Below, one piece after another: positions 14,373-34,635 of a stretch of DNA of 64,000 nt. Each line of letters opens with the position of its first letter. The stretch's first letter is position 1. This stretch comes from Microcoleus vaginatus WJT46-NPBG5 (GTDB taxonomy: Bacteria; Cyanobacteriota; Cyanobacteriia; Cyanobacteriales; Oscillatoriaceae), in assembly GCA_019359355.1 (NCBI GenBank), contig JAHHHM010000001.1, forward strand, positions 186,001 through 250,000. The letters are read 5' to 3'. The position numbers were made by a program, and so were the translations under genes. The notes under the pieces are model-generated. The model saw nothing but the letters and a program-made list of their open reading frames with translations, was not told the DNA's origin and searched no databases.

Positions 14373-15758
14373 ATGAACCGCCAACGATTAGCCATGAGCA
14401 ACTTGAACAGATTGGCCTTCTGTTTAATGCTTTTACCCGGTTTATTCTTAGCTGAAGAGATCGCTTTTGGCAGGGACAAGCCGGCATTCTCTTTACAAAC
14501 ATTTCAAGACGAAGATGACCCACTCCTTCTCGCCCCAAAGACATATACGGCTGCTGCCCCCTCCTACCCGACCTTTAATAGCGAACTCCTTGACCGGCAA
14601 TTGGCGCTGTATCAGCAATCTGTGGCAAATTCAGGGCCGCCCGATATTTTAATTGTGGGCAGTTCCCGCGCCCTGCAAGGCGTTGATCCGGTGGCTTTGC
14701 AAACGGCTTTGGCCTCTCAAGGATCTGCGAAGCTAAAAGTGTTTAACTTTGGCATCAATGGGGCGACGGCTCAAGTTGTGGATGTCTTGCTACGACAAAT
14801 TTTAACTCCAGAGCAGTTGCCTCGAATGATCGTGTGGGCGGATGGGGTGCGCGCCTTTAACAGTGGTCGAGTGGATCGCACTTACAATGCGATCATTGCT
14901 TCTCCCGGCTACCAGCGCTTATCTGGGGGAAGTCGCCCTAGTGCCGGCCAGCCAACTCGCCCTGGCACCATACCGGCAACTCGCCCTAGCAGCACACCGG
15001 GGGGCGGCATTATTCGGCCAGATCCGATCAATTTTCGTCAACAGGTGCCGCAATCTCCTGGCTATACCATCCGGCGCAAAAGCAGCAGTCGCTTACAAAA
15101 ATTGTCTTTTAAATCTTTGAAAAGCAGCGCTGCCGGCAGCAAAATTCGCCCAATTTTAGGGGCTAGCTATCAAGCGGAACTCTGGGACGAAAACCAGGAA
15201 CAGCCGCTTGCAAACGTCTACTACCAGCAGCGAAGCATACCCAGCCGCGCACCGGATAAGCCACCGGCACAACAGTCACCCCGCACCGTGCCGGCAGCGC
15301 AACCGGCCAGATCCCCAGAAAGTGAACGGATCGGCAGTGGTTTTAATGCTGTTTCCACTCGATTTAATCCTGCAACCTACTATCAAAGCGTGCGGCGAGT
15401 TCCGGGTGAATACGATGGTGATTATGCTTCCTTCAACTTACAAGGGCAGCAAGCCGCCGCACTCCAATCCGTCGTGGCTTTTGTGAAGTCAAAACGGATA
15501 CCTCTTGTCATAGTTAATTTGCCCTTAACTCAGGATTATTTAGATTCAGTACGGCTGCGGCATGAGCGAGAATTCCAGCAATTTATGCAGCGCTTTGCCG
15601 GAGAAAAGGGATTTATTTTCCGTGATTTATCAAGTCGGTGGCCGGCTCAGAATGATTATTTTGCTGATCCCAGTCATCTTAATGTCTATGGCGCAGAAGC
15701 CGTCTCTAAACAACTCGCCCAAGACCGTACAATTCCTTGGCCAACTTCACGACCTTAA
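14373..15758 (+). CDS. SGNH-hydrolase-like exported protein (DUF1574-like)
   Basis: 461-residue protein with an N-terminal signal or membrane anchor (about residues 8-30). The catalytic-type blocks of the SGNH esterase fold are separated by a long insertion: block I PDILIVGSSRALQGVDP (about residues 91-107), the Asn block NFGINGATAQVV (about 125) and a C-terminal DPSHLNVYGAEAV with the Asp-x-x-His pair. A Pro/Arg/Ser-rich insertion of about 180 residues sits between them. Related proteins (DUF1574, AlgX/AlgJ-like) acetylate or deacetylate exported polysaccharides. Such a role is inferred; the gene stands alone, followed by a strong terminator. A start at 14394 is also possible. Confidence 0.65.
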   Translation: MNRQRLAMSNLNRLAFCLMLLPGLFLAEEIAFGRDKPAFSLQTFQDEDDPLLLAPKTYTAAAPSYPTFNSELLDRQLALYQQSVANSGPPDILIVGSSRALQGVDPVALQTALASQGSAKLKVFNFGINGATAQVVDVLLRQILTPEQLPRMIVWADGVRAFNSGRVDRTYNAIIASPGYQRLSGGSRPSAGQPTRPGTIPATRPSSTPGGGIIRPDPINFRQQVPQSPGYTIRRKSSSRLQKLSFKSLKSSAAGSKIRPILGASYQAELWDENQEQPLANVYYQQRSIPSRAPDKPPAQQSPRTVPAAQPARSPESERIGSGFNAVSTRFNPATYYQSVRRVPGEYDGDYASFNLQGQQAAALQSVVAFVKSKRIPLVIVNLPLTQDYLDSVRLRHEREFQQFMQRFAGEKGFIFRDLSSRWPAQNDYFADPSHLNVYGAEAVSKQLAQDRTIPWPTSRP

Positions 15759-15790
15759 TAATAGTCAGTAATTTTGCGGTATAAACACTG

Positions 15791-15831
15791 AAGCGCGAAC
15801 AGACAATATTGCTGTTCGCGCTTTATTTTTT
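15791..15831 (+). terminator. Rho-independent terminator
   Basis: Perfect 12-bp stem AAGCGCGAACAG / CTGTTCGCGCTT (15791-15802 and 15812-15823) with a nine-base loop, followed by a T-rich tail. It lies just after the SGNH-like gene. Confidence 0.9.
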
Positions 15832-15957
15832 GGCTAAGCAAGCGGGTGACATCGCAAATACTAAATAAAAAGCAGTCGGCAGGAATGTATCATCTATCAA
15901 AAACCGAATTCTTTGTAAAGATGACTCCGAAAAATTACGGAGTAAGGGCATTTAAAC

Positions 15958-16161
15958 TCAATCAACTACTTTAAGTAATCCCCGTTGCAAAGCATCAAAT
16001 ACCCGGTTGATACTGCTTTGCTCTTGTTCGCTTAATGAATCTTTTGACAGCAGTGACGACATGAGCAAACGTTGGTCAATGCGGGAGATTTGGCGAAATG
16101 CCATAATCCGCTCAACAATTTTGTCTAATGAGATTTTAGGTAATGTGGCTTGAGCTTGCAT
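15958..16161 (-). CDS. Small conserved cyanobacterial protein
   Basis: 67-residue helical protein without signal peptide or membrane segment. The segment RISRIDQRLLMSSLLSKDSL followed by a glutamate-rich stretch and INRVFDALQRGLLKVVD is a pattern I recognise from many cyanobacterial small proteins annotated only as hypothetical. The gene lies between a terminator from the left-hand gene and the divergent mtnP gene. Its function is unknown; the compact three-helix look suggests a protein-binding role but nothing in the neighbourhood supports a pathway. Confidence 0.7.
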   Translation of the reverse strand: MQAQATLPKISLDKIVERIMAFRQISRIDQRLLMSSLLSKDSLSEQEQSSINRVFDALQRGLLKVVD

Positions 16162-16374
16162 TGTGTTTTGGGAAGTAAAGGTTGAACATCACTCAACATT
16201 TATAAGTTTAAAGATTTCATAAAGATGTTAAGTGATTGCCGGCATATCAGGAATGTGACAATTTATAATTGGTTAAGTGATACTTATCATTGACAAAGCC
16301 GGTCATCTCGCTCCAGTCCTTCTCATTTCCCGGTAAAATAGCTTGGCGAAATAACAAGGCAGCAGGGAAAACTC

Positions 16375-17247
16375 ATGGCTCAAGCAAAGATTGGGATCAT
16401 TGGCGGCAGCGGACTCTACAAGATGGATGCGCTCAAAGATGTTCAAGAAGTTCGCGTTGACACGCCCTTTGGCGCACCGTCCGATGCCTTGATTGTGGGA
16501 ACCTTAGAAGGAACGCCAGTGGCTTTCCTCGCCCGTCACGGTCGGAATCACACGTTTTTACCCTCAGAGTTGCCATTCCGGGCAAATATCTACGCAATGA
16601 AGAGTCTGGGGGTTGAGTATGTAATCTCTGCATCCGCTGTTGGATCGCTGAAAGAAGAGGTAAAGCCGCTGGATATGGTTGTGCCAGATCAGTTTATTGA
16701 TCGCACCAAGAACCGGATTTCAACATTTTTCGGCGATGGCATTGTCGCACACATTGCTTTTGGTGATCCCGTCTGTGGCAAGCTAGCGACAGTGCTGGCA
16801 GATGCAGTGGCGAGTTTAGAGTTGCCAGATGTGACGCTGCACCGAGGGGGTACTTACGTTTGTATGGAAGGGCCGGCATTTTCCACAAAGGCAGAATCCC
16901 ATCTTTACCGCAGTTGGGGTGCCACAGTAATTGGCATGACGAATTTACCGGAAGCAAAGTTAGCGCGTGAAGCAGAAATGGCTTATGCAACTTTAGCTTT
17001 GGCAACAGATTACGACTGCTGGCACTCGGATCATGACAGTGTAACGGTAGATATGGTAGTTGCAAATCTACACCGCAATGCGCTAAACGCTCAGAAAGTA
17101 ATTCAAGAAACTGTGCGGCGTTTAACTGAAAACCCGCCTGTATCGGATGCTCATTCTGCGTTGAAATATGCCATTTTAACGCCTTTAGATAAGGTTTCAC
17201 CGGCAGCCAAGGAAAAGTTGGGATTGCTCTTGCAGAAGTATGTATAA
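16375..17247 (+). CDS. mtnP: S-methyl-5'-thioadenosine phosphorylase
   Basis: Cytoplasmic enzyme of the methionine salvage pathway: phosphorolysis of 5'-methylthioadenosine to adenine and methylthioribose-1-phosphate. The phosphate-binding N terminus [13 protein letters not shown], the [19 protein letters not shown] segment, the [16 protein letters not shown] substrate motif and [15 protein letters not shown] are those of MTAP rather than of purine nucleoside phosphorylase. The [10 protein letters not shown] segment near residue 222 carries the catalytic Asp. The 290-residue length is typical. Other salvage genes are not adjacent. Confidence 0.95.
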
Positions 17248-17456
17248 GTAGAGAGAAATAGGGACTGAGGTAAGGTGGAAGAAATGCCTCATCCCTCTAC
17301 TCACTTACTTTCCCAATCAGCATTTCTCCTCTTCAATAGTTTTGAGGAGTTAAACTCGAACTTGAATCAGCAGACAGAGCCTTTTTAGATTCGAGTTTAC
17401 AGGGGATTTTTCCTGTTTTATAGGTAATATTTATAGATTTTTAAGCAAAAAATAAA

Positions 17457-17498
17457 AGACACTCAGGTAAAACTTTTCTTTTAACCTCAGTGCCTTTT
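17457..17498. terminator. Possible terminator between convergent genes
   Basis: Imperfect inverted repeat (AGACACTCAGGT against AACCTCAGTGCC, two internal mismatches) followed by TTTT on the plus strand, between the ends of mtnP and the TPR gene. The stem is weak, so the call is tentative. Confidence 0.35.
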
Positions 17499-17538
17499 AA
17501 TAAAGTTGCCGGCATTGAAAATTTCTCAGCAATTTTTT

Positions 17539-18531
17539 CTATCTAGCAATCAAATCTTCAAACCACTCATTCTCCCGAACTCCGTCAAAAGAAGGGTCAG
17601 TTTTGGCGATTTGCCTTTTATCAGGATTGAGGTTAACCGACTGTCTCAAATTTTCAATGGCGGAATCTACATTGCCTTGCAGCGCATAGCAGCGAGCTTT
17701 TTCATACCAAGCATCAGCATACTCAGAATTGATACGGAGAGCTTGGTTAAATGATGCGATTGCGTCCTCGTAACGTTCCACCCTGGTTAATGCAACCCCT
17801 TTACCACACCAAGATTCATAATCCTCTGGATTTGTTTGAATTGCCTTCTCATAAACTTCAATCGCATCGTCATAGCGACCTTCCAGAAAAAGGCTATCGC
17901 CCTGCTTCACATAATGGCCGAAAACATCTTTAAGTAAATCCCCTGTTTTAGCTTGGGTGTTGAGTGACTCTTCAATGGAGTTGCGAGCATCTGAAATAAC
18001 ATTTTGAGTCGCCATTGCCATTGAAATCAACTCTTTTAATTGAGCCACATTTTCACCGCTCATGGCGGGCTGTGCCGGCGGCGGAGCAATTTCTCGTTTA
18101 TTTTCGATGCCGGCACCCATTAGCCGCACCATCTCTCCTTTGACTTCCTTCCCGAGTTCGTCTTTCACCTCAGATTTAATCTGATTTGCCAAACTTCGTT
18201 TCAACAGCCACAGGCTGAGAATGCCGACAAGTGGAAACAGAATTAGCAGAAACAGCAAAATATTCAGCATAGAAGTTGTTAACCCAAACGTGCGGTTAAC
18301 TTCTCGCTGGACATATCTTTGAATTCGCTCTTCTTCTCTTCGCTGTTGCAACTCCTGCCGCTCCCGCGTTGAAAGCGGCGCAGCAGGAGTTGTTGTGGGT
18401 TTTGCCGGCGCAGCAGGTTTAGCAGCAGGAGGCTTGGCGGGTGGCGCTGCCGGCTGTGCGATAGCCGCAGCACTTCCCATAGATAACAACAGGGTAGAGA
18501 GTACGAAAGCAACTTGATTGTTAATCTTCAT
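17539..18531 (-). CDS. TPR-repeat membrane protein
   Basis: 330 residues when started at the ATG ending at 18531; eight extra residues upstream look non-native. The order is: signal peptide (about 1-25), Ala/Pro/Lys-rich linker (25-55), charged helix, one membrane span (LNILLFLLILFPLVGILSLW, about 87-106), a helical region, and tetratricopeptide repeats from about residue 205 (YVKQGDSLFLEGRYDDAIEVYEKAIQ and two more units). The C terminus (IAKTDPSFDGVRENEWFEDL) is a recurring ending of cyanobacterial TPR proteins. TPRs bind proteins; the partner is unknown. A decayed relative with the same ending lies directly upstream. Confidence 0.82.
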   Translation of the reverse strand: MKINNQVAFVLSTLLLSMGSAAAIAQPAAPPAKPPAAKPAAPAKPTTTPAAPLSTRERQELQQRREEERIQRYVQREVNRTFGLTTSMLNILLFLLILFPLVGILSLWLLKRSLANQIKSEVKDELGKEVKGEMVRLMGAGIENKREIAPPPAQPAMSGENVAQLKELISMAMATQNVISDARNSIEESLNTQAKTGDLLKDVFGHYVKQGDSLFLEGRYDDAIEVYEKAIQTNPEDYESWCGKGVALTRVERYEDAIASFNQALRINSEYADAWYEKARCYALQGNVDSAIENLRQSVNLNPDKRQIAKTDPSFDGVRENEWFEDLIAR

Positions 18532-25750: not shown

Positions 25751-25784
25751 AAGCCTGTTACTAATTGAAGTAACAAGCTTTTGA
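25751..25784 (+). terminator. Rho-independent terminator after bioF
   Basis: AAGCCTGTTACT / AGTAACAAGCTT (25751-25762 and 25769-25780) pair with one mismatch around a six-base loop, followed by a T-run of four including the stem end. It lies 25 bp after the bioF stop. Confidence 0.7.
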
Positions 25785-25853
25785 CTCGTTTTGAGATTTT
25801 ACGGATTAAGATTGCCTGTTTTTACCAAACTGAAAAGCTAAAAAATTTTGCCT

Positions 25854-26441
25854 TTACTGGGGGCTTTTGGTTTCAGTGTTTTCAGTTTCCTTTTCAACTT
25901 CCTTGTCAGCTTCCGGGGTAGTTGTGTCGGTACTGCTGGCTCCAGGCGTTGTTGTCTCCGTGTCGCTGGCTGCCGGCTCAGATGTTGCTGAGGCAAGGGT
26001 TGCTTTATTGGTAACCGTGTTAACACCCTTGACTTCCTTCGCCAAAGTGTCGATCTGGCTCAACTGATCTTGAGTCTCAACCGTGCCGGTGATTGTGACA
26101 GCACCCTCATCACTAGCAGCAACGGTTAGCTGGCTGGAAGGGAGGTTAGTTTCGAGGGTATTGCGAACTTTACTTTCAATGTCGTCTTCGCTGATATCTT
26201 GCGGGTTTCCAACCGCTTCATTCCGCTGATCCCGGGCTCGTTCGTCTGAGGATATTTGAGCTTGACGGGTTTCGCTTGTCGCGTCTTTTCTCGTCTCACG
26301 AGCGCTTTCTGCATCCGGAGCTATAGTAGCGGTTTCATTCGTGGAATTGGGAGCGTCAGAGCTTGTCTTAGAAGTGTCTTGGCAAGCAGCAGCACCTAGG
26401 ACTAAAGCACCGCTCAGGAGAAATGGAATAAACTTTTTCAT
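25854..26441 (-). CDS. BON-domain lipoprotein (copy 1)
   Basis: 195-residue envelope lipoprotein. A signal peptide ends in the lipobox LGAAAC (lipidated Cys20). After a Ser/Thr/Glu-rich linker comes one BON domain (about residues 83-145: DDIESKVRNTLETNLP, AVTITGTVETQDQLSQID, EVKGVNTVTNKA), a fold that binds phospholipids or other envelope components and appears in OsmY-like stress proteins. The tail is a long Thr/Glu/Ser-rich low-complexity stretch. It is the last of four minus-strand genes in which YflT-like proteins and BON lipoproteins alternate; the copy at 28053-28586 is its paralogue. A role in osmotic or envelope stress is inferred. Confidence 0.85.
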   Translation of the reverse strand: MKKFIPFLLSGALVLGAAACQDTSKTSSDAPNSTNETATIAPDAESARETRKDATSETRQAQISSDERARDQRNEAVGNPQDISEDDIESKVRNTLETNLPSSQLTVAASDEGAVTITGTVETQDQLSQIDTLAKEVKGVNTVTNKATLASATSEPAASDTETTTPGASSTDTTTPEADKEVEKETENTETKSPQ

Positions 26442-26576
26442 TGTGTACTTTTCTTCTTGGAAGTGCCTAAGGCATCTGTGAGTTTAAGAAATTTTACACT
26501 CTATTTCTTTTTATGACAAGTAGTTAATCAAATGATGCAATTTTTGGAAATCAAGCCATCTTTGCTTCCATTAAAA

Positions 26577-26614
26577 TTTGGAGCTTTTAGAATATTAATT
26601 CTAGAAGCTCCAAA
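26577..26614 (-). terminator. Strong hairpin downstream of the double YflT gene
   Basis: TTTGGAGCTTTTAGAAT pairs with ATTCTAGAAGCTCCAAA over 17 bp with one G-T wobble and a four-base loop. It lies about 70 bp beyond the stop of the 26687-27892 gene. On the minus strand it is followed by AAATTTT, so it can serve as a terminator. Confidence 0.65.
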
Positions 26615-26686
26615 TACTCATTTAAAAATTGCCTACTCTATTAGCAACCGCCCGTCAGGCTTAAAATGATGCCGGATTCAAGGCGA

Positions 26687-27892
26687 TCAATGCCCGAGAT
26701 TTTTGGCATCGCGGTCATAAACCGTTTCCGGGAAAGGTACGCCAGGAGCGCCGGTTGTGGCGGAGGTTGCATCATCAGTGCGGGTAGGAGTGGGGGCGTC
26801 GTACACACCCCAGTCCTGAATGCCGCGATGGTTGAGAATTGTGTCAGCGTGGCGAACCTCTTCTTCAGATCCATTCACCATCACCAAATAATCACCGCGC
26901 GCCACCCGATCACCATAAACTTTAGCGCGCTCTTCAGGAATGCCCAAACCAACTAAAGCACCAATCAAACTGCCGGCTGTTGCACCAAGGGCAGTACCGG
27001 CCAAGGTGGTGGCAATCGCAGTGGCTTCAGCACCGGCTAGCATGATCGGCCCAATACCGGGAATTGCTAGGGCACCCAAACCGACTAGCAAGCCAGTAAG
27101 TCCGCCCAGTGCACCGCCTGTCAGTGCGCCGGTTGTTGCGCCTTCGTCAGCCTTATTGCCCACGCGATCCTTCACATCAACGCCGGCGATATCTCCCTCG
27201 CGATCAGCATCTCGTGCGATCACAGAAACTTTATTCATCGCAAAACCAGCATCGCGCAAGTCGTGGAGCGCTCTTTCGGTTTCTGCGCGGCTAGAAAAAA
27301 CACCGACTGCCCGTTGATGCCGGCCAGCACCTCTGCCGGTGCTACCCACGGGTGCGTCATAGATGCCCCAATCTTGAATTCCACCACGGCTGAGGATCGT
27401 TTCTGCCGCATGGATTTGCTCGTCCGTACCTTCTACGAGCACTAAATAATCGCCCCTAGAGACGCGCTCATTGTAGCCTTTAGCACGATCTTCGGGAACT
27501 CCCAACCCGACCAGTGCGCCCACCAGACCGCCGGCAGCAGCACCAATCGCACCCCCTATCAGAGTGTCCCCTAAAATAGAGGCCAAAGCGCCTCCTGCCA
27601 TAATAGGGCCAATTCCCGGAATCGTCAGCGCAGTCAGGCTTCCGATTAAACCGATCAAACCTCCTGTGGCGGCACCGGCTACTGCACCGGCTTTCGCACC
27701 CTCGCCCGCTTCTTTACCCGGACGATCACTCATTCCAACGCCGCCTACGTCCTTGCGTCCGTCACTATCCTGAGCAACAACGGAGACTTTATGCATGGGG
27801 AAGCCCGAAGTTCTCAGTTCATTCAGTGCCGCCTCAGCGTCACGGTAGTGGGAAAACACACCCACAGCACGTTTGTGTTGACCTATTGCCAT
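26687..27892 (-). CDS. Tandem YflT-like / glycine-zipper stress protein
   Basis: 401 residues from the ATG ending at 27892, which follows a GGAGGAAGGAAAA ribosome site; an upstream frame extension lacks one. The protein has two similar halves. Each starts with a YflT/GS17M-type domain (KRAVGVFSHYRDAEAALNEL; HQRAVGVFSSRAETERALHD), then a glycine-zipper membrane-active stretch (GGLIGLIGSLTALTIPGIGP; GGLTGLLVGLGALAIPGIGP), and ends with RGDYLV-VEGTDEQI...ILSRGGIQDWGIYDAP. The zipper segments could insert in membranes. The family is linked to general stress in bacilli; the role here is inferred. The C-terminal tail (ETVYDRDAKNLGH) is unique to this copy. Confidence 0.82.
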   Translation of the reverse strand: MAIGQHKRAVGVFSHYRDAEAALNELRTSGFPMHKVSVVAQDSDGRKDVGGVGMSDRPGKEAGEGAKAGAVAGAATGGLIGLIGSLTALTIPGIGPIMAGGALASILGDTLIGGAIGAAAGGLVGALVGLGVPEDRAKGYNERVSRGDYLVLVEGTDEQIHAAETILSRGGIQDWGIYDAPVGSTGRGAGRHQRAVGVFSSRAETERALHDLRDAGFAMNKVSVIARDADREGDIAGVDVKDRVGNKADEGATTGALTGGALGGLTGLLVGLGALAIPGIGPIMLAGAEATAIATTLAGTALGATAGSLIGALVGLGIPEERAKVYGDRVARGDYLVMVNGSEEEVRHADTILNHRGIQDWGVYDAPTPTRTDDATSATTGAPGVPFPETVYDRDAKNLGH

Positions 27893-28052
27893 TTTTCCTT
27901 CCTCCATTATCTGCAATCTTCGGGGGCAGGCATGACACGGTTTACCAGCCTGTCCCACTTATTTACACACTTTTTGTCTAGCGTATTCATCAGCCGCTAG
28001 GGATAACGTCACTCTCTATCAAGAGATAGATAAGTGATCAGTCAACACAAAA

Positions 28053-28586
28053 TTAGTTTTCTTTCTCTTTTTCTTTCTCTTCTCCTTTCTCTTCCTCTGT
28101 ATCCTGATCTTTTTCGTTGCTATCTCCAGGAACTGCGGATTTTACAGTGGCTTTAACATCTACAGTTTTGACCCCTTTAATTTCCTTGGCTAAAGGTTCA
28201 ATTCTAGCTAGCTGTTCAGCTGTCGGAACCACTCCGGATATCTCCACTGCCCCATCATCGGCTTTAACCGCCAGAGAACTTGCCGGTAAATTTACTTCCA
28301 ATTTGCTGCGAATTTCGCTTTCTAAATCGTCATCTGCTCTTTCTAATGGGTTGCCGGCAACATTGTTGCGTTGCTCTCTGGCGCGAATATCAGAGTCTGC
28401 TTGCGCTCTGCGAACTTCGCTGGTGCCATCCTTCTGATTTTCTTTAGCGGTTTCAGTATCTGGCGGTTTGGGGTTTGTTTCTGCAGTGGTATCGGGAGCA
28501 TTAGAACTCGTTTTAGCGACGTCACTGCAAGCGCCTACACTTAAAACTAATAGACCGCTGAGTAATAAAGTTGTTAGCTTTTTCAT
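28053..28586 (-). CDS. BON-domain lipoprotein (copy 2)
   Basis: 177-residue lipoprotein closely related to the one at 25854-26441. The lipobox is LSVGAC; then the same linker pattern (TAKENQKDGTSEVRRAQADS), the same RAREQRNNVAGNPLERADDD approach and one BON domain (DLESEIRSKLEVNLPASSLA, GAVEISGVVPTAEQLARI). The tail is a short Glu/Lys run. It has AAGGAG before the ATG. The similarity of the linkers, not only the domain, indicates that the two lipoproteins arose by duplication. Envelope location; the ligand is unknown. Confidence 0.85.
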   Translation of the reverse strand: MKKLTTLLLSGLLVLSVGACSDVAKTSSNAPDTTAETNPKPPDTETAKENQKDGTSEVRRAQADSDIRAREQRNNVAGNPLERADDDLESEIRSKLEVNLPASSLAVKADDGAVEISGVVPTAEQLARIEPLAKEIKGVKTVDVKATVKSAVPGDSNEKDQDTEEEKGEEKEKEKEN

Positions 28587-28635
28587 TTTTCTTCTCCTTA
28601 ATGTATTGGCAAAACTTGTTGGTGACTAGGGTTAG

Positions 28636-29226
28636 CTACATCCCCATCCAAGCATCTGAAGGTAAATCACTTATTTGTTTTCTTTGAGCGTCGTAGATGA
28701 TCAAGTCTTCAATCTGCCGCTGAGTCAGAATTTTTTGAGCGATGGCAATCTCTTCTTCTGTGCCTTCTACCATTACCAAATAGGCTCCGCGTGAGACCCG
28801 GTCGTAATAACTTTTCGCTTGAGCTTCGGGAATGCCCAAACCGACAAAAGCCCCCATAAAACTCCCCGCCGCCGTACCAATTGCACTCCCCGCCAGGGTG
28901 GTTGCCAGGGCAGTTGCTTCCGCACCCGCTAACATAATCGGCCCAACTCCGGGAATTGCGAGTATGCCCAAGCCGACCAGTAACCCAGCTACTGTTCCCA
29001 AAGCCCCACCCGTCAACGCACCTGTCGCAGTGTTGTCTTCCGCTTGATTGCCACTTTCGGTGCCTTTAACCAGGTTGGCAATCTCCCTATCTTCCTCAGT
29101 ATTTCTGGAAATTACAGAAATCTTTTCTATAGGGAAGCCGGCTGCTTTTAGTTCCGTAAGTGACGCTACAGCATCTTCAATTTTGGCAAATATGCCGACA
29201 GCGCGTTTGGTTGGAGAGGAACCCAT
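28636..29226 (-). CDS. YflT-like / glycine-zipper stress protein (single unit)
   Basis: 196-residue protein equal to one half of the tandem gene at 26687-27892. It holds TKRAVGIFAKIEDAVASLTE at the start, a NQAEDNTATGALTGGALG stretch, a glycine zipper with GILAIPGVGPIMLAGAEATA, and the closing block VSRGAYLVMVEGTEEEI and ILTQRQIEDLIIYDAQ. The zipper matches the second half of the tandem protein best, so the tandem gene probably grew by internal duplication. It lies 49 bp upstream of the BON lipoprotein and is likely co-transcribed with it. Confidence 0.8.
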   Translation of the reverse strand: MGSSPTKRAVGIFAKIEDAVASLTELKAAGFPIEKISVISRNTEEDREIANLVKGTESGNQAEDNTATGALTGGALGTVAGLLVGLGILAIPGVGPIMLAGAEATALATTLAGSAIGTAAGSFMGAFVGLGIPEAQAKSYYDRVSRGAYLVMVEGTEEEIAIAQKILTQRQIEDLIIYDAQRKQISDLPSDAWMGM

Positions 29227-29737
29227 TTGCTTTTTCTAGGTAGTTGAAACAGCGAATAAAAAATTAGTTTTATACGTTTATATTAAGCTGAACCTGCTTA
29301 AGAGTTCATCACCCTTTAGGTGTAAGTTAAGGCTCTGCCGGTAGAGGGATAAAATAGCAAAAATGACATCTTCATCGCATTGTTACTAGCAGAATGTCAT
29401 GGGTAACAGGGGGTGACTCAGTTAACGTCTGGCTGTTTGAGCCACGCAAAGCAGCACGAGCGCCTCTCGTCGTGCCGGGAGCGCTTTAGCGGTGTTGGAG
29501 ACAACAGTTGAAGGGAATTGAGTGCCGCAGTTCATCCCCGCAGGGTGTTCAAGTCATTGCCTCGCCCTTGTTAAAGCCGGCGAAGGACAAGAAAATATCA
29601 CGTTGATTTAAATTCTTAATAATAAATTCCAGATGTTACGGCTAATTGCCGACTAAAATTTCGCGTGTTCATTTCCTTGGTTGAAACCCAGGGTTATCAT
29701 CTATCAGCTTTAATTTGGCAATTTTAGGATTTCCTTT
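29227..29737. other. Intergenic, no gene seen
   Basis: About 510 bp upstream of the stress-gene pair and before the end of the CHAT relic. No credible frame on either strand. It should contain the promoter of the 29226 gene. Confidence 0.4.
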
Positions 29738-30600
29738 TTACTGTGTATACAACTCCTCGACTAACTGAGCACTAGAATTTTCGTTTACTAGCGGTAAAGA
29801 AGCAATGGCAGTTGTGTGCGCCGGCAGCCGCAGCAACTCCCGCAACTCCCAAAGTCGCTCGTTTATCTCCCTTGGCAGTTTTACAGCCAGAAAGAATCGG
29901 CAATTCAAGCTTCTTAAAAGTTCTTTGTTCGCTAATTCCCAAGCTGTTATCTAAATCTTTAACTTTGAGATTTTAGCCCCAAACATCGATAGAGGTTTGA
30001 TTTGGAGCAGAAATAAATTTACCGTACGTTTCTATATAAACCACAGAGATAGAACCTAATTAAAGTCTGGTAGGGTAAGTGGTATCGGTAAAATCTTTAT
30101 TGAGAAGAATCCGAGTTTGATTAATAACTTGTTCTTGAATTTTCTTAAGTTCACGTTCTACATAGAGAAGGGGCAGCGAATTTTTACCCTCAAATCTTTG
30201 TTTTTTACTAATGCCGGCAGCTAAAATCTTTGACTTTTCCCGGATCAGAGCTTAAATCCTTAAAAGTTGCCACCCAGGTATTAAAGCAAATTGTAGTTTT
30301 TTTTGGATCGGATAGTTATTGCTATCCCGCTCATAAAGAGTAGATATCGGAATATTCGTAAAGCTCCATCCATCACAAAAACCAACGTCTTAGTTCCAGA
30401 ATTTTGTCAATTTGGCTTTGCTTTGCAGATCAACCAATCATAAACCATTCAAGACAAACCTGTGCCCGGTTTATCGAATGGAACGATTATAGTTTTGTGT
30501 GCCGTGCAGATTACGGAGGTCAGTCGTAGACATGATTATCGCTTCCTAGTTTTGGCAAGCTTTATATCGGCACCCTCAGAGGCTTACCAATGGTGGGTAA
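29738..30600 (-). pseudogene. Decayed CHAT-domain (caspase-like) protease gene
   Basis: No frame here exceeds 60 codons, but the minus strand spells out a CHAT domain in pieces. From 5' to 3': NIPISTLYERDSNNYPIQKK, then LQFALIPGWQLL; SLPLLYVERELKKIQEQVIN; RILLNKDFTD; then in another frame ELPILSGCKTAKGDKRATLG and VAGVAAAAGAH; and after one more frame change IASLPLVNENSSAQLVEELY to a stop at 29738. These match in order the core of CHAT proteases, including the catalytic Cys in GCKTAKGD. Several in-frame stops and at least two frameshifts show it is dead. The upstream (TPR-like or other) part of the gene is no longer recognisable. CHAT proteins are caspase-related and abundant in filamentous cyanobacteria. 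Confidence 0.8.
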
Positions 30601-31880
30601 TCCCTGATCTCTTGTGAGTAAGCCGACAAAACAGCCGGTGAGGGCAATACCGCTAGTGCGACCCTCAAGTAGTCATACAATGTATAGCACAGTTTCAGAC
30701 TTTATAGTATAGGATTTTGTCCACTGGATTTCCTCCTATCAAGATTGCTCAAAAATTTATGCCTTAAGGAGGATTCATAAATTTTTGATAAAGCCTTATG
30801 GTTGAGATCGGTTGTTGACGCGTTGGTTGCCAATCTCACCGCAGTTGCCTAAAGACTTGAAATGTTTGAGCTGCCGGCAGTTACTTCCGATTGTGAATGC
30901 CGGCCAAGCTGTAGCGCATTTCAGGATCTGTTGAGACTTTGCCTGGAAATAAGAAAAAAATAGAGGAAAGCGAGAGTTTAGCCGTTCGTCGTTCAGAGTA
31001 AAAATTAGCAGTTAATGTTTGGGGGTAAAATTTTGCTCGATCTTGCCTGTCCCTTTACATTTTCAAGTATTTGTGCGAACCTAATTTTAAAACCCTGTGG
31101 GAAAAATTCTCAAAAAAAGTTTAAGTCACACTGTTAATCATCTAAAATTAGATAAAAAACTTGTTAGTCATTAAGTTTGAATTAAAAATTTTTAAGAATT
31201 AAAGCATTTTTTGTTAGTGTTTATACATTACATTCAGGCTATTTTGAAGTTTGTTGTACTGACCAATTCGGTTAATCATCCGTGGTTTTTCGTTTCTAAT
31301 CGTTAGAGAAACAAAAGCCGAAGTAATGTTCTATACCAATATCGTTGATTGGTATATCTTCAGGAATACCTTAAAGCCCAAGCAATCTTGTTTTAGAAAA
31401 AAGTTTGGCTTGTAGACCCAAAAGAATTAGCACAAACGCAATACCTGAAGAGCTGAAACAGTTTTTCAGGTTTGGACAAGCCGCGTCCAAGCGAGGTTGT
31501 ATTGTCAATTACAAGCTAACTTTACAAAATCTTAATTCTTCAGGTATAAACTGATGCATTTTTTCAGAAAAGAATTACATAAAGTGGCGTTTATTTGTCT
31601 TCGATATTCTAGCAACCTCATCCTTTAGGCAGAAGAAGGTCATAAACTAAAATGATATTGTTTTGGTTAATGATAGCAATCAAAAACAAAAGCTTAAAGT
31701 GAAGTTTTCCAGTCTGCAAAAGACAGCAATTTGTACTTCATCATAAGCTAATCGCACGCTTCCTTCAAACTCATTTTTTTCTAACGTTCTGGTAAAAACG
31801 TTCCCAGTGATGTTTGATAGCTAACTGCTTTTGACCCTTCTAAAAAACAGCATCGAACGACTAAATATCTGAGGCTACTT
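30601..31880. other. Long region without genes, with inverted repeats
   Basis: About 1.28 kb with no convincing coding frame. Its left end may hold the eroded 5' part of the CHAT relic. It contains two perfect inverted repeats (30751-30786; 31332-31356, TATACCAAT / ATTGGTATA with a 7-base loop). The last few hundred bases are very AT-rich and should carry the promoter and leader of the sugar cluster starting at 31881. A non-coding RNA is possible but not shown. Confidence 0.45.
30751..30786. repeat. Perfect 11-bp inverted repeat
   Basis: AAAAATTTATG (30751-30761) and CATAAATTTTT (30776-30786) around a 14-base loop that contains AAGGAGGA. The 3' arm ends in TTTTT, so the hairpin could terminate plus-strand transcription. 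Confidence 0.55.
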
Positions 31881-33200
31881 ATGTCCCTGTACGAAGGTAA
31901 AATAACTAACGATCTCAGCAATGTTGTATCCCTAGCCGAATCTGCTCAAAAACTCGCTTCATCGCCGAGTTCCCAAGCTTCAGACAACGGCGTTCACAGC
32001 TCCGAAGACTCCCTTCCACAGGTGCCCGATCTCGTCTGCTTATGCCATTTACGCTGGGATTTTGTCTACCAGCGGCCTCAACATCTGTTGAGCCGGTGTG
32101 CAAAAGCGCGGCGGGTATTCTTGATCGAAGAGCCAATGTTCGTTTCTGAACCGGCAGGACGGTTGGATGTGAGCCGGCGCGAGAGTGGAGTGTGGGTGAT
32201 TGTTCCGCATTTGCCAGAAGGGATGGATGAAGAGGCGGCAAATACCCTTCAACAAAAACTCATTGACGAGCTGTTTGCAGAACACAGCATTGATCAGTAC
32301 ATTTTGTGGTACTACACGCCAATGGCGATGGCGTACACGCGCCATCTCAAGCCCTTGGCAGTTGTTTATGATTGCATGGATGAACTTTCGGCCTTCAAAG
32401 GAGCGCCACCGGCACTGAAAGAGCGCGAAGCTGAACTGTTCAAACGTGCAGACTTAGTCTTCACCGGCGGACATAGCCTTTACGAAGTGAAGCGCAACCA
32501 GCACCCCAACGCCCACCCATTTCCCAGCAGCATCGAAGCAGCGCACTTTGCACAGGCAAGAAACCTATCAGAAGATCCGGCAGATCAGGCAGATATCCCC
32601 CACCCACGCCTCGGTTTCTATGGGGTGATAGATGAACGGATGAATCTCGAACTGCTTAGCGGCATGGCCGAAGCGCGTCCTGACTGGCATCTGGTAATTA
32701 TTGGGCCGGTCGTCAAAATCGATCCTGCCGTTTTGCCGCGCCACCCAAACATTCATTATCTGGGCGGCAAATCTTATCAAGAATTGCCATTGTATCTGGC
32801 CGGCTGGGATGTCGCGTTGCTGCCATTTGCGCTCAACGAGTCAACGCGCTTTATTAGCCCCACCAAAACCCCAGAATACCTCGCTGCCGGTAAGCCGGTG
32901 GTGTCAACCTCCATCCGCGATGTGGTGCGTCCCTATGGGGAGCAAAACTTGGTGGCGATCGCAGATACCCCTGCCGAGTTCGTTACCGCAGCGGAGGCAG
33001 CGCTGAATCAGAAGGCGGATGAATCAGCGCAATGGCTGAGTGAAGTTGATGCCTTCCTCTCTCAAACCTCTTGGGATCGCACTTGGGGGCAGATGTTGCA
33101 ACTGATCGAGTCTGTGATTAGCGATCGCATGGCACCGGCAGACGGTTTAGTAGCTTTGAAGGAAAATCGCAACACTGCCGGCTCAGTTCATCACGGATAG
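31881..33200 (+). CDS. Glycosyltransferase (GT-B fold, TuaH-like)
   Basis: 439-residue cytoplasmic glycosyltransferase. After a Ser/Glu-rich leader of about 48 residues comes LVCLCHLRWDFVYQRPQHLL, the start signature of a group of GT1/GT4-like enzymes related to TuaH. The C-terminal nucleotide-sugar half holds PRLGFYGVIDERMN, WHLVIIGPVVKIDP and the donor-binding FISPTKTPEYLAAGKPVVST. The next gene, 199 bp on, is UDP-galactopyranose mutase, so this enzyme may transfer galactofuranose or another galactose-derived sugar; that is inference from context. It heads the sugar cluster. Confidence 0.85.
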   Translation: MSLYEGKITNDLSNVVSLAESAQKLASSPSSQASDNGVHSSEDSLPQVPDLVCLCHLRWDFVYQRPQHLLSRCAKARRVFLIEEPMFVSEPAGRLDVSRRESGVWVIVPHLPEGMDEEAANTLQQKLIDELFAEHSIDQYILWYYTPMAMAYTRHLKPLAVVYDCMDELSAFKGAPPALKEREAELFKRADLVFTGGHSLYEVKRNQHPNAHPFPSSIEAAHFAQARNLSEDPADQADIPHPRLGFYGVIDERMNLELLSGMAEARPDWHLVIIGPVVKIDPAVLPRHPNIHYLGGKSYQELPLYLAGWDVALLPFALNESTRFISPTKTPEYLAAGKPVVSTSIRDVVRPYGEQNLVAIADTPAEFVTAAEAALNQKADESAQWLSEVDAFLSQTSWDRTWGQMLQLIESVISDRMAPADGLVALKENRNTAGSVHHG

Positions 33201-33399
33201 CAGCCGGTGTGATCAACCGCCAATCAGCTGCCACTCAACTTTGAACCCTTCGATTTAACCTTTCACCGGCAGCGAGTATTCCCGCCTGCGGAGCAATTCG
33301 TTCAACAATTTTCTACTTTGAAGCGGCCTTTTCATCCTTTGATAGAAAGTGAGAAAAGTGAGTTGCCGCCAGATTAAATACAAAAAGTGAGGTACTCCA

Positions 33400-34635
33400 A
33401 TGTTCGATTATTTGATTGTGGGCGCAGGTTTTTCCGGAAGCGTGCTTGCCGACCGGCTGGCACGTGAATGTAACAAAAGAGTTCTGATCGTTGACACGCG
33501 CAACCATATTGGCGGCAATGCCTATGATTGCTATGACGAATCTGGCATCCTCATTCACAAATACGGCCCACACATCTTTCACACCAACTCCCGCGAAGTC
33601 TTTGAGTACCTCTCGCAATTTACCGAATGGCGACGTTACGAACACCGCGTTATTGCCAGCGTTGATGGGCAACTTGTGCCGATTCCAATCAACCTTGACA
33701 CCATCAATAAACTGTACGGATTGAAACTAACCTCCTTCGAGGTCGAAGCGTTTTTCAACTCGGTTGCTGAGCAAAAAGAATACATCCGCACCTCAGAAGA
33801 TGTTGTTGTCAGCAAAGTCGGACGGGAACTGTACGAGAAATTTTTCCGCAACTACACCCGCAAACAATGGGGACTCGACCCATCCGAACTCGATAAGTCA
33901 GTGACGGCCCGCGTTCCCACCCGCACCAACCGCGATGATCGCTATTTCACAGACACCTATCAAGCGATGCCGCTGCACGGATACACTCGGATGTTTGAGC
34001 GGATGCTGACGCACCCCAACATCAAGATTATGCTCAATACTGACTACCGCGAAATTCAGAATATTATTCCGTATCGGGAAATGATTTATTCCGGGCCGGT
34101 GGATGAATTCTTTAATTATCGCTTTGGGAAATTACCTTATCGCTCCCTAGAGTTCAAGCATGAAACCCACAATACGTCGGTGTATCAACCCCAGGCAGTG
34201 GTGAACTATCCCAACGAACACCTTTACACCCGCATTACCGAATTCAAATATCTCACCGGCCAAGAACATTCTAAAACAAGTATTGTTTACGAATTTCCCC
34301 GTGCAGAAGGCGACCCTTACTACCCCGTACCGCGCCCAGAAAATGCCGAAGTTTACAAGAAATACAAAGCCCTGGCTGACGCAACTCCAGGCGTGCATTT
34401 TGTAGGCCGGCTCGCCACTTACAAGTATTACAACATGGATCAGGTGGTAGCTCAGGCGCTGACTATTTACAAACAGATCCGCACCCTGTCGCAAGAAGCC
34501 GGTGTTACGGATCTTGCCCAGAAGAAAACAATGGCTTCCGACATCACCCTGCCGCCGGCGCTGGAAACCCCAGGACTTGCCCTGTCAAAATTAGAATCTC
34601 TAGGAGGAAACGGTAATGGTAAAGCCACTTCCTAA
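33400..34635 (+). CDS. glf: UDP-galactopyranose mutase
   Basis: Flavoenzyme that interconverts UDP-galactopyranose and UDP-galactofuranose, the donor for galactofuranose in surface polysaccharides. The FAD-binding N terminus is DYLIVGAGFSGSVLADRLA followed by RNHIGGNAYDCYD and KYGPHIFHTNSREVF; the FFRNYTRKQWGLDP and YEFPRAEGDPYYPVPRPEN segments carry substrate-binding residues of bacterial Glf. 411 residues is slightly longer than usual (about 370-390) because of a Ser/Leu-rich tail. The last 20 bp overlap the start of the next gene, indicating translational coupling. Confidence 0.95.
   Translation: MFDYLIVGAGFSGSVLADRLARECNKRVLIVDTRNHIGGNAYDCYDESGILIHKYGPHIFHTNSREVFEYLSQFTEWRRYEHRVIASVDGQLVPIPINLDTINKLYGLKLTSFEVEAFFNSVAEQKEYIRTSEDVVVSKVGRELYEKFFRNYTRKQWGLDPSELDKSVTARVPTRTNRDDRYFTDTYQAMPLHGYTRMFERMLTHPNIKIMLNTDYREIQNIIPYREMIYSGPVDEFFNYRFGKLPYRSLEFKHETHNTSVYQPQAVVNYPNEHLYTRITEFKYLTGQEHSKTSIVYEFPRAEGDPYYPVPRPENAEVYKKYKALADATPGVHFVGRLATYKYYNMDQVVAQALTIYKQIRTLSQEAGVTDLAQKKTMASDITLPPALETPGLALSKLESLGGNGNGKATS

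Follow-up and report, generated by a model that had tools for sequence, protein, structure and literature searches.

The window, by which we mean the whole 64-kb stretch of DNA analysed (its genome is designated G000), almost certainly contains the nonfunctional scar of an ancestral four-gene cluster, most of which was removed by one deletion of about 11.2 kb, with unselected decay of the leftovers; the simplest view is that G002, one of the two congeners found (G001 and G002), shares this event. Judged by gene content, the organism would be a cyanobacterium. We see directly the gene pieces, the shared synteny, the absence of 11 kb, the stops and the loss of codon-position bias; a single deletion before the G000/G002 split is the simplest account of them. 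An earlier note had interpreted the region as a dead, minus-strand CHAT protease gene, which is right but incomplete, as the evidence supports the deletion of most of the four-gene cluster as the main lesion.

CHAT peptidases (PF12770) have a caspase-hemoglobinase fold. The gap between the YflT-domain gene and the glycosyltransferase gene (Table 1) contains no frame longer than 56 aa lying wholly inside it in the ORF list, but a profile search of G000 identifies a PF12770 match at C17:215814-216359 (window 29814-30359; profile positions 36-224 of 289; E 3.8e-9). This match reaches 37.6 bits against a curated cut-off of 24 bits and is therefore no chance resemblance; three TAA codons lie inside it. 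When the intact CHAT protein of G001 (830 aa) is aligned with the window by tblastn, three ordered pieces are obtained (codons 556-608, 583-765 with E 1.3e-64, and 765-828), which contain stops and lie in two frames, the kind of frameshift-tolerant alignment by which the dead gene was to be checked. The relic is thus the counterpart of codons 556-830; its aligned pieces contain six in-frame stops, the frame changes twice, and there is one 8-codon gap. Both peptides quoted in support of the CHAT gene, the Cys motif and SAQLVEELYTQ, are present on the minus strand (ORFs 29772-29942 and 29738-29908), while SAQLVEELYTQ, taken as the end of the protein, is followed by a premature stop, and the relic continues beyond it to about 29636. 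Likewise, the proposed span 29738-30600 is CHAT up to 30445, while 30446-30600 is not CHAT and holds the start of a subtilase gene.

The histidine and cysteine of ATHG ... SAC, which we take to be the catalytic dyad of CHAT proteases, are both present in 13 out of 13 intact relatives linked to two-partner secretion (TPS) genes. In the relic, the His block of the intact protein (HIATHGKF) has become YIETYGKF, where tyrosine replaces the catalytic histidine, while the Cys block (LSACETA in the intact protein) reads LSGCKTA and retains the catalytic cysteine, so that the cysteine of the dyad is present and the histidine is absent. As its histidine is replaced, the relic is filed as a pseudogene of the PF12770 family, not as a working member. 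It shows the features of a pseudogene by deletion, namely an intact orthologue at the same locus (in G001), disabling lesions and lost codon-position bias. The inferred loss of a caspase-like protein holds at this one CHAT locus and does not extend to the whole family, because G000 keeps 30 further PF12770 matches (31 in total), none of the 30 with an internal stop.

An intact copy, expected by the earlier note in a close relative, is found at the same place in the congener G001. A 20-kb stretch of this genome read across the corresponding locus (L071) has the same flanks and contains four minus-strand genes in the order subtilase, PEP-CTERM protein, TPS-domain exoprotein and CHAT-TPR protein. 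The subtilase (2023 aa) comprises Peptidase_S8, three P_proprotein stretches, SBBP repeats, Calx-beta, PPC and DUF4114; the PEP-CTERM-motif protein has 212 aa; the exoprotein (891 aa) contains a TPS secretion domain (234.6 bits), and the CHAT protein contains TPR_12 and a CHAT domain scoring 180.7 bits to PF12770. The identities of these four and of three window flank proteins were assigned by Pfam scan and those of the other L071 ORFs by eye. As aligned at the DNA level, window 25769-30445 corresponds to L071 1-4713 and window 30477-34562 to L071 15910-20000, and the two halves of the relic region match G001:C8:1289850-1290712 and 1301909-1302210, which are separated by about 11.2 kb. Codons 1-15 of the subtilase are recognised by tblastn at window 30533-30489 (MSTTDLRNLHGTQNY vs MSTTDLGNLSGTHNY, 80% over 15 aa), whereby the first ~45 bases of this gene are joined to CHAT codons 556-830, while tblastn with the PEP-CTERM and TPS proteins of the G001 cluster gives no credible match in the window. 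The CHAT end and the subtilase start remain and the middle genes are absent; the scar therefore represents the two ends of the cluster. The flank genes are in the same order in G000, G001 and G002.

Table 1. Features of the scar and its flanks (window coordinates).
Feature	Position	Strand	Evidence
CHAT-TPR gene relic, 3' third	29636..30445	-	PF12770 profile, tblastn
Catalytic Cys codon, still Cys, context SGCKTA; SAC or TAC in 13/13 intact relatives	29883..29885	-	
Catalytic His place: Tyr; Gln in G002; His (ATHG) in 13/13 intact relatives	30024..30026	-	
Deletion junction; short, without clear counterpart or long direct repeat	30446..30488	-	
Subtilase (Peptidase_S8/SBBP) gene, first 15 codons; heads the G001 cluster	30489..30533	-	
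Intergenic, from the lost cluster to the divergent glycosyltransferase gene; not a dead gene	30534..31880	.	
YflT-domain gene, intact downstream flank; same neighbour in G001 and G002	28636..29226	-	
Group 1 glycosyltransferase gene, intact upstream flank; same neighbour in G001 and G002	31881..33200	+	

The ancestor would have carried subtilase, PEP-CTERM protein, TPS exoprotein and CHAT-TPR protease genes on the minus strand, as G001 still does, and a single deletion of about 11.2 kb would have removed everything from subtilase codon ~16 through CHAT codon ~555. The leftover pieces would then have accumulated stops and frameshifts without selection, and G002 may later have lost about 300 bases more across the junction. 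Transfer of the subtilase gene to another place in the genome is rejected, as the best match in G000 and G002 has 58% identity over 212 aa, and so is a repeat-mediated deletion, as the junction has no long direct repeat. An assembly error is rejected as the cause, as G002 has its own broken copy at the same place.

The relic region matches G002 directly at the DNA level. The G002 copy contains four stops (one TGA, one TAG and two TAA) with no frame change over 206 codons, has the catalytic histidine replaced by glutamine, and is without a counterpart of window 30238-30541. Most stops differ between G000 and G002, which together with the unchanged frame in G002 indicates that the decay was mostly independent. 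Over the 597 columns common to the three congeners, the changes in the relic at codon positions 1, 2 and 3 number 12, 23 and 10 for those confined to G000, 13, 12 and 12 for those confined to G002, and 16, 15 and 35 for those common to G000 and G002 against G001. The glycosyltransferase gene gives 3, 2 and 20, then 4, 8 and 17, and 16, 15 and 44 in the same classes; the contrast between relic and glycosyltransferase gene in the G002-only class is weak (Fisher p 0.046). The private changes in the relic are without position-3 bias and the shared ones have it, thus placing selection before the G000/G002 split and not after it, while the selection assigned to the time before the split may instead lie on the G001 branch, as the two alternatives look alike in these counts.

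Two independent deletions, one each in the G000 and G002 lineages, are unlikely but form the strongest alternative. They would agree with the different position of the junction in G002, which follows from the missing counterpart of 30238-30541, and with nearly all stops being private; however, the same ~11 kb is missing in both genomes, the breakpoints lie within ~60 and ~210 bases of each other, and the changes private to either branch have no position-3 bias, so that selection was over by about the time of the split. As the original junction is gone in G002, one shared deletion is unprovable from G000 and G002, and the single event before the split is preferred as the simpler account. Later insertion of the cluster in G001, with the window in the older state, is highly improbable: the window form is shorter and common to two of the three congeners, but the window has both cluster ends (subtilase start and CHAT end), neither of which an empty site would have, and the order S8, TPS, CHAT also occurs in G003 and, interrupted by small genes, in G038. 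There is scarcely any chance that the 3' piece still yields a functional truncated or recoded product: the CHAT core is alignable over most of its length and keeps its cysteine, but has six stops, two frame changes, no catalytic histidine and no position-3 bias since the split.

The rest of the gap is of a different nature. The earlier note correctly described 2.6 kb without long frames, of which only about 0.9 kb is relic. A further 1.35 kb (30534-31880) is an old intergenic region which was never coding: its counterpart in G001 has no frame of 100 aa or more either, so it is not a dead gene. Compared from 30545, it differs from G002 at 131 of 1328 aligned bases (9.9%) and from G001 at 196 of 1334 (14.7%). 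This stretch is conserved in the two congeners, and an imperfect inverted repeat of 24 bases lies at 30738-30799. We reject a known RNA gene as the content of the gap, since no Rfam family reaches its gathering score in the window and no tRNA is found there.

Among known systems, the relic aligns to the CHAT peptidase domain including its His and Cys blocks, as does the intact G001 protein at the score given above, while differing from it in being broken, in its replaced histidine and in the deletion of its N-terminal two thirds. Csx29 (TPR-CHAT) of the type III-E CRISPR system Craspase is described as containing TPR repeats and a CHAT protease domain (PMC9729208, PMC9935389). The intact G001 form of the lost protein shares this combination, but has a hydrophobic, signal-like N-terminus, and no CRISPR gene or Cas7-11/gRAMP is recognised near it among the L071 ORFs of at least 100 aa (20 kb). 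It shows no sequence match to solved chains at E 0.01, and a scan of named genomes with it gives no confirmed relative; PADLOC returns only weak TPR and subtilase matches. The gene beside the intact CHAT gene resembles those of two-partner secretion exoproteins (TpsA; PF05860, TIGR01901) in its TPS domain, while the locus differs from a two-partner secretion locus in having TpsA with no TpsB (ShlB) nearby; each congener has two TpsB genes, and both of those in G001 lie elsewhere. No paper pairing a CHAT domain with filamentous hemagglutinin or haemagglutinin was found in open-access full text, and other wordings of the CHAT-TPS pairing gave nothing in the titles and abstract starts of the open-access literature. 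Both a filamentous hemagglutinin gene and, as a separate entry, the CHAT gene all2170 are listed among the genes mutated in phage-resistant Nostoc 7120, with no link drawn in the accessible part of that report (PMC10811720), and the accessible parts of PMC8195603 and PMC12691664 do not describe the pairing.

Among 19 genomes searched, the closest relatives of the 830-aa protein occur in G003 and G038 (56% identity). G003 has the order subtilase-like (2820 aa), TPS protein, CHAT protein, while G038 has subtilase (1286 aa), four small genes, TPS protein, CHAT protein; the core of the cluster is thus older than the genus. For 41 of 47 genes in the subgroup of the lost CHAT protein, from eight genomes, a TPS-domain gene is found no more than 12 kb away, and in 35 of these cases it lies upstream of the CHAT gene and on its strand; the expectation is 3.8 on a rough uniform spread that ignores the kinship of orthologues in the three congeners. 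The count covers 47 of the 48 relatives from the eight genomes searched for TPS genes (the broken G002 copy is left out) and excludes 43 relatives in 11 other genomes as well as nine TPS rows of G016, where CHAT relatives were not searched. Neighbourhoods with the pairing (L071 and L080-L091) come from G001, G003, G038, G000, G005, G006 and G039, and a DUF928 gene adjoins the CHAT gene in four of them (L080, L083, L086 and L087). In L080, the TPS-CHAT pair is accompanied by a second CHAT protein, encoded at 15557-17950, which is membrane-linked and combines CHASE2 with a CHAT domain at its N-terminus (69.3 bits). CHAT and TPS matches in G000 fall in same-length frames at C18:29060-39682 (3590 aa), C28:245274-251603 (2161 aa) and C31:145311-149321 (1393 aa), which suggests CHAT-TPS fusions, i.e. 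exoproteins with their own CHAT domain.

A strongly hydrophobic N-terminal segment is present in 13 out of 13 TPS-linked CHAT proteins versus 12 of 15 G000 CHAT proteins taken as unlinked, a set which consists of those with a CHAT frame found from 20 examined, includes one frame open at its 5' end, and is impure, as L095 and L099 each have a TPS match about 6 kb away. An exported N-terminus is therefore rejected as a mark of the module, since most other G000 CHAT proteins have one too; export seems to be a general trait of CHAT proteins here and not specific to the module.

The neighbour signal is strong, far above the chance level, and suggests that CHAT and TPS proteins form a functional module. 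Gene order and domains raise the possibility that the intact gene encoded an exported cysteine protease, with a CHAT domain and TPR repeats, which would act on the adjacent TPS exoprotein or work beside it, although the chances are rather against it. We tentatively propose, as a possibility short of even chances, that TPS exoproteins and an exported TPR-CHAT protease whose gene lies directly downstream of theirs recur as a module, within which the protease would cut, mature or police the exoproteins in the periplasm or on the cell surface. Such a secretion-coupled role would be distinct from the defence and CRISPR roles of CHAT proteins; the proposed variants of the module sometimes have a subtilase upstream, an adjacent DUF928 protein or a fusion to the TPS domain. 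In itself the scar is ordinary: a deletion removed most of a gene cluster and the rest is decaying. With the cluster intact in a sister and another copy decaying in G002, it is a clear natural case of gene loss. The finding that deserves further work is the CHAT-TPS neighbour signal. If the link is functional, it would offer a testable role (surface exoprotein processing or control) for many caspase-like proteases.

On the downstream side of the scar, window 25854-29226 (minus strand) contains two BON-domain lipoprotein-like genes alternating with two YflT-domain genes, the first of which has two domain copies, and this BON/YflT set looks like a duplicated gene pair.
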